Source: Aminomonas paucivorans DSM 12260
GTDB lineage: Bacteria > Synergistota > Synergistia > Synergistales > Synergistaceae
NCBI RefSeq assembly: GCF_000165795.1
Contig: NZ_CM001022.1
Span: 1,302,001 to 1,366,000, forward strand
Direction of reading: 5' to 3'
DNA length: 64,000 nucleotides
Positions 27,934-31,308 of the stretch are shown here, in pieces. The stretch's first letter is position 1; the number at the start of each line of letters is the position of its first letter. The notes beneath the pieces were generated by a model. The model ran no database searches, was not told the DNA's origin, and was given only the letters and a program-made list of their open reading frames with translations. A program made the translations under genes and the position numbers.

Positions 27934-28977
27934 TCACTCTCCGGGATGAACCACCAGGTTCCCGGTGCCTTCCTGCAATCGTCCCACCCGCACGGTTTTG
28001 GGGAAGCCCCCCTGGCGGAAGGCCTCCAGGAAGGCCGGTTCGTCCCCTTCCCCCACTGCCAGGAGCAGGCCCCCGGAGGTCTGGGGGTCGAAGATCAGGT
28101 CTTCCAGGGGAGGGGATACCCCTTCTCCCATCCGGACCCTGGTTCCCGCATGGTTCCGGTTGGAATAGGCCCCTGCGGGGATGAGCCCCATGGAGGCGGC
28201 CTCCAGTGCCCCCGGGAGGACGGGAAGGTTTGCCGCGAAGAGCTGCAGGTCCAGGGTCCCCTCGGAGAGGAGATCGAGGGCGTGGCAGCCCAAGCCGAAG
28301 CCCGTCACGTCGGTGCAGGCATGTACGCGGCTCCGAAGCTCCGGCGTCAGGAAGAGGGGAGCGTCGTTGAGCCGTGCCATGGTCTCCACGGCGCCCTGCA
28401 GGTGTTCCGGCGACGCCAGCCCCGCTTTCCCGGCGGTGGTGAGAAGCCCCGTCCCCAGGGGTTTGGTGAGGAGCAGCACGTCCCCCGCCCTTGCCCCGGT
28501 GACCTTCCAGAGGTCCTTCGTGGGGACCTCGCCGTACACCACCAGTCCGTACTTCGGTTCCTCGTCCTGCACGCTGTGCCCCCCCGCGAGGCAGGCACGG
28601 GCCTCCATTACCTTCCGCGCTCCTCCCTGGAGGATCTTCTGAAGCACCTCAAGGGGCTCGCAGGAGGTGGGAAAGCCCACCACGTTCAGGGCCACGAAGG
28701 GCCGGCCCCCCATGGCGAAGACGTCGCTTAAGGCGTTGGCCGCGGCGATGGCGCCGAAGGTCTCCGGATCGTCCACGATGGGGGTGATGAAATCCACCGT
28801 CAGGATCCCCACCCGTTCGTCGTCAAGGATCCACAGCGCCGCGTCCTCCCCGTGTCCCCAGGAGGCCAGGAGTCGGTCATTGGGGATGGTGGGCAGGGAC
28901 GCGAGGATTTGGTCCAGCTCCGCTGGGCCGATCTTGGCGGCTCAGCCGCTGGTGCGTGCTCGTTCGGTCAGACGCAT
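27934..28977 (-). CDS. selD: Selenide, water dikinase, a selenoprotein (Sec at codon 12)
   Basis: Makes selenophosphate from selenide and ATP for selenocysteine and selenouridine synthesis. The reading frame contains an in-frame TGA (28944-28942) at codon 12, at the position of the catalytic Cys/Sec in the SelD motif: here SG-Sec-AAKIGP, with the essential Lys at residue 15. Downstream homology (DFITPIVDDPETFG, ANALSDVFAMGG, DVTGFGLGCHA, DPQTSGGLL) is strong. ATG 28977 is preceded by GGGAGGTGA on this strand. Counting Sec, the protein has 347 residues. A SECIS-like hairpin follows the UGA, and a diverged copy of the whole start region lies upstream. Confidence 0.93.
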
Positions 28978-29068
28978 GCGCGTCACCTCCCTTCTGTAAC
29001 CGGTCCAGCTCCGCTGGGCCGAGTCCGGCGGCTCAGCGGCCGATGCGAACGCCCGGTGTCGGATGCAC
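28877..29068 (-). other. Upstream UGA-containing reading frame preceding and overlapping selD
   Basis: In copy 2 of the duplicated unit a GTG (29068) stands where selD has ATG, seven bases after a Shine-Dalgarno sequence that includes the birA stop. A TGA occurs at codon 12 (29035-29033), as in selD. Termination there gives an 11-residue peptide, MHPTPGVRIGR. If the UGA were read as Sec, translation would continue with AAGLGPAELDRL, which resembles SelD, then pass the selD start codon in another frame and stop at TGA 28879-28877 (63 residues). Whether it is translated is unknown; see findings. Confidence 0.5.
28911..28944 (-). promoter_or_regulatory. Bacterial SECIS element within selD
   Basis: On the selD mRNA the UGA is followed after 12 nt by GGCCCAG-CGGAG-CUGGACC: a 7-position stem with one C-A mismatch and a 5-nt G-containing loop. 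A further GAU/AUC pairing extends its base. Distance and loop composition fit the SelB-binding SECIS of bacterial selenoprotein mRNAs. Confidence 0.75.
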
Positions 29069-29081
29069 CGGCGTCACCTCC
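28911..29081 (-). repeat. Tandem 91-nt duplication of the selD start/UGA/SECIS unit
   Basis: Two units are offset by exactly 91 nt. Copy 1 is the selD start region (28911-28990) and copy 2 lies in the birA-selD gap (29002-29081). The hairpin-coding 21 nt (28911-28931 and 29002-29022) are identical, as are the 11 nt around the UGA (28936-28946 and 29027-29037) and the Shine-Dalgarno segment GGAGGTGACGC (28980-28990 and 29071-29081). The stretch between UGA and start codon has diverged to about half identity. Confidence 0.9.
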
Positions 29082-30096
29082 CCTCGGAGCCCTTGGAGGG
29101 GCGCAGGTGGTGCACGTCCGCTGCGGCGAACCGGTGTTCTTTCCCCAGGGCGTCGCGGACCCAGAGGGCGCCCTCCCGGTCCACGGAGAGGGCGGTGCCC
29201 TCCACGAAGCTGCAGTCCAGCTCCACCCGCACGGGCATCCCCAGGGTGGAGCAGCGTTCTCGGTAGGAAGCCAGAAGCGCCTCGTCCCCTTCCGGGGAGG
29301 AGAGCCGAACCATCTGCGACGCCAGGGATTCCAGCACCGCCGCGAGCACCGCGCCTCGGGAGGTGGGGCCGCCGAGCCGATCCTTCAGGGTGGCGATCCG
29401 GGCACCCAGCTCCGCCGGGAACTGGGAGGCGGAGAGGTTCACGTTAAGCCCCATGCCCGTCACCACGTGGTGGATGCGGTCCGCCTCCACCGCCGCCTCG
29501 CTCAGGATGCCGCAGAGCTTGCGCCCTTCCAGGAGCACGTCGTTGGGCCACTTGATGGCAGCCCTCAGGCCGAAGAGGCGAAAGAGCCCCTCCTGAACCG
29601 CCAGGGCCGCGGCGAAGTTGACCAGCTGCACCTGGCCGGGCAAAAGGGGAGGACGCAGGAGCACGGAGAAGTACAGGCCGCCCCCTGGAGGGGAGTCCCA
29701 GTCCCGTCCCCGTCGGCCCCGTCCGGATTCCTGGCGTTGGGCTACCACCACCACTCCCTCCGGGGCTCCTTGGCGGGCCAACTCCTTCAGGGGGACCTGG
29801 GTGGAGTCCAGGACGGGAAAGTGCAGGATGGGGTGCCCCAGGGGGACGTCCCGGAGAAGCCACTCCGTCCAGGAGGGAGAGAAGTCCTCCGCGTGGGGTT
29901 CCCCTTCAAGGCGGTATCCTTTCTGGGGAACCGAGGCCAGGGGGATGCCTTCCTGGCGCAGCCCGTCGGCCAGCTTGGAGATGGCTTGGCGCGTGATGCC
30001 CAGGCGGGAGACGAGAAGGGAGCTTGGGATCAGGTCTCCAGGGGTTTCCGCGAGGATCCCCAGCATCTGGAGTCGATGGGGTGTGGATCGGTTCAT
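29074..30096 (-). CDS. birA: Biotin operon repressor / biotin-[acetyl-CoA-carboxylase] ligase
   Basis: Activates biotin to biotinyl-AMP and transfers it to carboxylase carrier proteins; the N-terminal winged HTH (LLVSRLGITRQAISKLADGLR, then SVPQKGYRL) suggests it also represses transcription. The ligase core has SGRGRRGRDWDSPPGG and IKWPNDVLLEGRKLCGIL. ATG 30096 is chosen because AAGGAGG lies just upstream on this strand; an in-frame ATG at 30153 would run into the promoter region shared with prfB. It has 340 residues. Its stop codon lies inside the Shine-Dalgarno sequence of the selD leader unit. Confidence 0.93.
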   Translation of the reverse strand: MNRSTPHRLQMLGILAETPGDLIPSSLLVSRLGITRQAISKLADGLRQEGIPLASVPQKGYRLEGEPHAEDFSPSWTEWLLRDVPLGHPILHFPVLDSTQVPLKELARQGAPEGVVVVAQRQESGRGRRGRDWDSPPGGGLYFSVLLRPPLLPGQVQLVNFAAALAVQEGLFRLFGLRAAIKWPNDVLLEGRKLCGILSEAAVEADRIHHVVTGMGLNVNLSASQFPAELGARIATLKDRLGGPTSRGAVLAAVLESLASQMVRLSSPEGDEALLASYRERCSTLGMPVRVELDCSFVEGTALSVDREGALWVRDALGKEHRFAAADVHHLRPSKGSEGR

Positions 30097-30130
30097 GGGG
30101 GCCTCCTTGTGGGGAACGACGATAGACCGA

Positions 30131-30139
30131 TGATATAAT
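30131..30139 (+). promoter_or_regulatory. Extended -10 promoter of prfB
   Basis: TGATATAAT (30131-30139) is a perfect extended -10 (TGnTATAAT). No good -35 box stands 17 bp upstream, which is normal for extended -10 promoters. It lies 44 bp before the prfB start. Confidence 0.6.
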
Positions 30140-30182
30140 CGGAGCTTACGCAAGACAACCGAAAAACCAAGGAGGGATGGAC

Positions 30183-31308
30183 ATGGTCGTTCTGCCCGTC
30201 AGCACGGTCATGAATCATCTGCGCTCGCAGGCCTGCGAGTTGCGTGACAGTCTTTGACCTGCCTGCCGCGGAGACACGCATCGAAGGGCTTCTGAAGCAG
30301 GCGGCGGACCCGGAGTTCTGGACCCGGGAGGATGCCCAGGAGACCACACGGGAGCTGGCGCAGCTCCAGCAGAAGCGGGAGTCCTGGGAGACCCTGAATC
30401 GAGAGCTTCAGGAGATGGAGACCCTGGCGGCCCTTCTGGCGGAGGGGGAGGATGTGGACCTGGAGGAAGAGTTCTACCGCCGCGCCGGGGCCTTCGAAAA
30501 GGAGCTGGAACGGCGGCAGATCTTCGTCCTCTTGGACGAGGAATACGACCGATCCGACGCCATCGTCACCATCCACGCCGGGGCGGGGGGGCTGGACTCC
30601 CAGGACTGGACGGAGATCCTCTCCCGCATGTACCTGCGCTGGGTGGAGAAGGAGGGCTTCAAGAGCCGCATCCTGGACCAGCTGGCGGACCAGGAGGCGG
30701 GCATCAAGAGCATCACCTTCGAGGTGCTGGGGGACTATGCCTACGGCTACCTCAAGGGGGAGAAGGGGGTGCACCGGCTGGTGCGCATCTCCCCCTTCGA
30801 CGCGGCCAAACGGCGTCACACCAGCTTCGCCTCCGTGGAGGTCCTGCCGGTGCTTCCGGAGGACGCGGACATCGAGATCCGACCGGAGGACCTGAAGATG
30901 GACACCTTCCGCTCCAGCGGGGCGGGAGGGCAGTACGTGAACATGACCGACTCGGCGGTGCGGATCACCCACATTCCCACGGGGATCATCGTGAGCTGCC
31001 AGGTGGAGCGGTCCCAGCACATGAACCGGGCCACGGCCCTCCAGGTGCTGAAGTCGAAGCTCTTCGAACGGCAGCTCCAGGAGCGGCAGGAGCATCTGGA
31101 ATCCCTCCAGGGGGAGAAGCGGTCCATCGCCTGGGGGAGCCAGATCCGCTCCTACACCCTCCAGCCCTTCCAGTTGGTGAAGGACCACCGGAGCGGCTGT
31201 GAGGTGGGCAACGTGGCGGCGGTGCTGGACGGAGACCTGGAGGAGCTGATCATGTCCACCCTGCGGTTCTTCAAGACCGGGAGGACCGTGGACAAGGAGG
31301 GGGCGTGA
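30183..31308 (+). CDS. prfB: Peptide chain release factor 2 with programmed +1 frameshift
   Basis: Recognises UGA and UAA stop codons. Translation starts at ATG 30183 (AAGGAGGG at 30169-30176) and runs 24 codons to CTT-TGA (30252-30257). Ribosomes must slip +1 there, reading GAC from 30256, to continue into LPAAETRIEGLL: the classical RF2 autoregulatory frameshift. The main domain shows the UGA-reading tripeptide in RISPFDA, and the GGQ loop in [17 protein letters not shown]. Total length is 374 residues. The slip site lacks an obvious Shine-Dalgarno-like stimulator just before CTT. Confidence 0.95.

Follow-up and report, generated by a model that had tools for sequence, protein, structure and literature searches.

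The start of selD, the gene for selenide, water dikinase, is present twice in the genome of Aminomonas paucivorans, and sequence comparison indicates that the UGA codon and SECIS hairpin of the upstream copy (hereafter copy 2) are kept beyond what chance decay would leave. Our preferred reading, held tentatively and just short of even confidence, is that copy 2 is a selenocysteine (Sec)-dependent leader ORF in the birA-selD mRNA, born of a 91-nt tandem duplication. That this leader also senses the supply of Sec-tRNA and SelB at its own UGA-SECIS and sets the translation of selD, as a homeostatic control atop the Sec codon of selD itself, is a more doubtful proposition, although a possible one. 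The Sec-dependent leader is slightly ahead of a neutral remnant of the duplication as an explanation.

The birA gene (biotin--protein ligase, 29074..30153; TIGR00121, 173.7 bits), recognized also by its ORF and by relatives with the same birA-selD order, is followed by selD (27934..28977; ATG at 28977, Sec at codon 12 with the UGA at 28944-28942; TIGR00476, 334 bits), with both gene names confirmed with NCBIfam profiles. These genes and all the leader elements lie on the minus strand of the 64-kb window, the whole stretch of DNA that was analyzed. Copy 2 occupies 28994..29085, as delineated by repeat searches, alignment of the copies and comparison of the birA-selD gap with relatives, and consists of a Shine-Dalgarno (SD) sequence, GGAGG (29077..29081), that is identical in the selD copy and is overlapped by the birA stop codon (UGA, 29076-29074), a putative leader ORF (29033..29068) with GTG at 29068, 11 codons (VHPTPGVRIGR) and UGA at codon 12 (29035-29033), at the same distance from the start as in selD and with no indel, and a 21-nt block (29002..29022) with a stem-loop at 29020-29002. 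The SD of selD (GGAGG) is at 28986..28990, and the 21-nt block of selD that matches the copy 2 block and, by folding, holds the SECIS hairpin is at 28911..28931. If Sec were inserted at the leader UGA, the frame would extend over 28877..29068 and comprise 63 sense codons, the Sec codon counted among them, before a second UGA (28879-28877). A sigma-70-like promoter was looked for between birA and selD, and none was found. The Sec machinery is complete in this genome, with selA, selB and tRNA-Sec present.

The birA-selD pair is adjoined by a divergent prfB gene (release factor 2, 30183-31308, plus strand; TIGR00020, 474 bits) with the classic frameshift signal CUUUGAC at 30252, in the frame of the ATG at 30183. 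In 53 of the 109 Synergistota selD loci, which are of limited length, prfB is detected next to selD (upstream and divergent in 48, downstream and co-directional in 5). The gene for the competitor at UGA and the UGA-Sec gene selD are conserved neighbors.

The duplication itself is unequivocal. The repeat search yields one direct-repeat family of 84 nt, with 75% identity and a spacing of 91, and the features of copy 2, including the SD (both are GGAGGTGA), are offset from their selD counterparts by exactly 91 nt, which bears out the claim of an earlier note, made from the bare sequence, that the unit of SD, start codon, UGA at codon 12 and hairpin exists twice. The Tandem Repeats Finder score of this repeat is 210, compared with 60 and 68 for the two other rows in the 64 kb, and it is the sole long-period tandem repeat in the window. 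Local alignment of the selD start with the upstream DNA (655-nt region) gives a score of 39, whereas 20 shuffles give at most 15. An assembly artefact was rejected because the copies differ at 25% of the positions and the genome is finished: it is represented by one contig of 2,630,170 bases, and the published finished genome has 2,630,120 bp (PMC3035310). A match to the duplicated leader was sought in viral contigs, and none was found.

The origin of the duplication can be gleaned from the junction with birA. In this family, selD commonly lies immediately behind birA, in most members at a distance of -4 to +19 nt. In the nearest genus that shares the A. paucivorans birA-selD junction (L012 and L013), birA ends with GGGAGGTGA and the selD ATG follows 5 nt on; in A. 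paucivorans, birA also ends with GGGAGGTGA, and it is the GTG of copy 2 that follows 5 nt on. The gap of 96 nt between birA and selD in A. paucivorans thus equals 5 + 91, so that copy 2 occupies the ancestral position of the selD start and the working selD start is the downstream copy. Column 18 of the SECIS alignment is C in both copies but T (94) or G (3) in the 97 other distinct Synergistota sequences, which suggests that the duplication occurred within the Aminomonas lineage or else that the copies were homogenized. Recombination with a foreign selD was rejected given that this C is found in both copies and in 0 of the 97 other distinct SECIS regions. The same junction has a bearing on the least probable of the explanations considered, namely, that copy 2 is a coupling spacer without Sec dependence that does no more than hand ribosomes over from birA to selD, its UGA being an ordinary stop: the birA stop overlaps the SD of copy 2 just as it overlaps the SD of selD in L012 and L013, but an identical hairpin after the UGA is left unexplained, and we consider this explanation very improbable.

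The differences between the two copies are distributed strongly non-uniformly: there are 2 mismatches in the 13 positions of the SD and spacer, 14 in 33 from the start to codon 11, 4 in 34 from the UGA to +31, and 8 in the 11 nt that follow the hairpin. The core is accordingly mismatched at 4/34 positions, compared with 22/44 for the flanks (Fisher p 0.0006), and the difference persists at codon positions 1 and 2 only, a count that discards silent changes in selD itself (3/22 against 15/30, p 0.008). The sequence UGA-GCCGCC is identical in both copies (UGAGCCGCC), and an identical 21-nt run (29022-29002 and 28931-28911) holds the hairpin (permutation p 0.0009). The identity of the hairpin and of the UGA surroundings, as originally claimed, holds for UGAGCCGCC and for the 21-nt block but not for the bases 5' of the UGA, nor for the 4-nt block between the UGA and the hairpin (AAGA->GGAC), which differ between the copies. 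The peptide of copy 2, VHPTPGVRIGR-U-AAG, keeps 2 of the 11 residues of the selD MRLTERARTSG-U-AAK, the start codon is GTG compared with ATG in selD, and, beyond the 9 of 11 residues that changed, the Lys of UAAK, which is conserved across the selD set, is lost. The further claim that the coding stretch diverged with the UGA and hairpin kept is borne out, as a role at the RNA level (Sec and SelB) predicts. The loss of the protein meaning of copy 2 with retention of the UGA and hairpin favors RNA-level selection, as far as can be judged from the sequence of one genome.

The most serious competitor of the Sec-dependent leader is a neutral remnant, that is, a functionless, decaying tandem duplication in which the core remained alike by chance or because the selD copy, which is under selection, converted it. 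This is a distinctly possible scenario considering that the duplicate is found in one genome among all Synergistota examined, that the coding part and the start codon of copy 2 have changed, that tandem copies 91 nt apart can convert, and that both copies share the C of alignment column 18, a base unseen in other selD genes. Nevertheless, a remnant does not readily account for the skew of the mismatches between core and flanks, nor for the preservation, with no indels, of the SD, the start-UGA distance and the UGA-hairpin spacing, and a conversion tract would have to end just outside the element and to skip the 4-nt block.

Published constraints on bacterial SECIS (bSECIS) elements call for an in-frame UGA and, after it, a hairpin with an apical loop that begins 16-37 nt from the UGA, with a loop of 3-9 nt, G in one of the first two positions, an upper stem of 4-16 bp and a minimum free energy (MFE) of -7.5 kcal/mol or lower (PMC13188914). 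In both copies, the loop GGA begins after 20 nt, has 3 nt with G first, and caps an upper stem of 5 bp that is extended by 2 pairs across a C.A mismatch. The MFE is -14.3 kcal/mol for the copy 2 hairpin compared with -9.8 kcal/mol for that of selD, so the former is predicted to be at least as stable as the latter; the extension of the hairpin is not evidence in itself because in 11% of the trials random flanks yield an extended hairpin that is just as stable. By distance, loop, stem and MFE, the copy 2 hairpin is predicted to be a bSECIS-type element. Across the phylum, the UGA is present in almost every full-length Synergistota selD match, and the 71 distinct Synergistota selD sequences display two hairpin registers: register A, with 5 bp and usually a GGC loop (56 sequences), and register B, with up to 8 bp and usually a GGA loop. 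In register A, 94.6% of the cells pair and one pair covaries, and all 15 sequences in which register A is broken keep 7-8 of the 8 register B pairs; A. paucivorans belongs with these, with register A broken and 7/8 register B pairs, identically in both copies. The structure is backed by this comparison of sequences from relatives, which indicates that the hairpin of selD is a genuine element throughout the phylum. A covariance model of the Synergistota selD SECIS assigns 42.5 bits to selD and leaves copy 2 at background (15.2 bits, E 0.3), but what weighs most in this model is coding conservation and register A, the latter absent from A. paucivorans, so that it is no test of hairpin function.

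In a subset of the selD sequences (alignment A1, e.g. L012, L013, L014, L018 and L020), a Glu codon, GAG, breaks register A; in 9 sequences the pair is regained by a Gly->Ala change (GGU->GCU), and otherwise the 8-bp register B forms. The amino-acid change in selD thus fits the RNA structure.

The conservation of the hairpin also invites an explanation that dispenses with UGA decoding, whereby the copy 2 hairpin would bind SelB and act through titration, tethering or a block of initiation, by analogy with E. coli selA. Indeed, the hairpin is the best conserved block, with 21 nt identical, and conforms to the bSECIS constraints (PMC13188914). However, UGAGCCGCC, the SD and the start-UGA distance, all needless for a hairpin alone, are kept as well, and the hairpin stops about 11 nt short of the selD SD and does not cover it. 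This explanation appears improbable, if less so than a coupling spacer. An element of the selA type would be a SelB-binding hairpin in the 5' leader with no decoded UGA; copy 2 has the hairpin and also, in a plausible leader ORF, a UGA.

The duplicated leader is not a conserved mechanism of the family; on the sequences at hand, it is lineage-specific, with A. paucivorans being the sole Aminomonas genome compared. A SelD match was found in 136 of the 188 Synergistota genomes, some of these weak and probably to related kinases. When the selD start was aligned with its own upstream DNA at the other Synergistota loci, no duplicate was detected, the best score being at most 17 compared with 39 here, and a search for the double-UGA pattern over the 188 genomes returned the A. 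paucivorans site and two chance matches only, one in a start region reading ATGAGCTGCC (G045) and the other 167 kb from the selD of its genome (G115). The second UGA and hairpin for which the earlier note would have relatives checked are absent from every other Synergistota selD locus compared, all in other genera, and the leader ORF is not conserved across related genomes. By the refuting condition named in that note, this absence counts in part against its interpretation, which is thus borne out only partly. Two further candidates were rejected: the 14-mer GCCGCTGAGCCGCC upstream of selD in L149, L157, L159 and L160 is the stop codon of an upstream ORF, and the N-terminal extensions of selD in family f6 contain no second UGA, the cysteines there being encoded by TGC or TGT, not TGA.

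The same survey brought up other variation in selD. One Synergistota genome (locus L184, G140:C58) has a second Sec-type selD, possibly acquired, whose N-terminus (IKLTQMSKTSGUAAKISPEILAQVL) resembles clostridial SelD more closely. Six genomes of family f1 (G143, G147, G152, G155, G156 and G160; genera g10-g12) carry SelD-like genes, with 43-45% identity, without an in-frame UGA; these differ from most of the family, perhaps through replacement of Sec or loss of the trait.

On the Sec-dependent leader reading, the tandem duplication turned the old selD start into a short putative leader ORF and shifted the working start 91 nt downstream, after which the leader, freed of protein-coding constraint, retained the UGA and the SECIS hairpin. 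We infer translation of the leader, Sec insertion there, and an effect on selD together with its sign. The putative leader has a ribosome-binding site and start (GGAGG, 8 nt, GTG) that are predicted to be paired in the mRNA, with unpaired fractions of 0.13 for the SD and 0.03 for the GTG, so that initiation there would probably require ribosomes arriving from the end of birA. For its composition, the hairpin that covers the start of copy 2 is ordinary (z -0.9). Ribosomes ending birA stop within the leader SD and could start at GTG 29068. At low Sec, they would terminate at the leader UGA, with the selD SD about 43 nt ahead for reinitiation; if Sec is inserted, they would read 51 further sense codons up to the UGA at 28879, passing over the selD start out of frame, and selD initiation would be altered. 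The predicted out-of-frame overlap of the extended frame with the selD start, already proposed in the earlier note, amounts to 101 nt; the length of the open frame past the leader UGA is not informative. In E. coli, recoding reaches 30-40% and is selenium-dependent (PMC4513850), so that the choice between termination and insertion could report Sec supply. The proposal that Sec insertion represses selD went too far: the selD SD is predicted to be paired for the most part, whether copy 2 is there (unpaired fraction 0.15) or not (0.33). Readthrough over the selD start might block selD, repression being the simpler guess, or it might melt the predicted pairing of the selD SD and open the start.

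Bacterial control of the Sec synthesis genes is poorly known, and a leader that reads out Sec insertion would, if real, be a compact selenium sensor, in which a recoding signal was duplicated and turned into a regulator, with its birth traceable against the birA-selD junctions of relatives. If copy 2 is instead a remnant, it is still a recoding element that outlasted its coding frame. In the open-licence papers on selD, SECIS, leader control and A. paucivorans, no duplicated selD leader is described. The Sec-encoding selD genes of Synergistota and clostridia contain a UGA and a bSECIS at the active-site codon, and copy 2 is a copy of exactly that element, which at all other loci examined is present once, in frame with selD, but here is duplicated. 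In the E. coli selA mRNA, Thanbichler and Boeck (2002; cited in PMC3834832) reportedly described a SECIS-like element of the 5' leader and proposed SelB-mediated tuning of translation; we know of no UGA-bearing leader ORF in that case, nor of a duplicate of the gene's own start. The two leaders are alike in having a SECIS-type hairpin upstream of a Sec-pathway gene, but copy 2 keeps the UGA, the SD and the spacing, and the gene is selD. The autoregulation of RF2 (prfB) through a UGA frameshift is similar in that the outcome of decoding an early UGA sets the expression of the downstream frame; there, however, the frameshift occurs within the gene, whereas copy 2 would involve a separate leader ORF, at whose UGA ribosomes either insert Sec or terminate.
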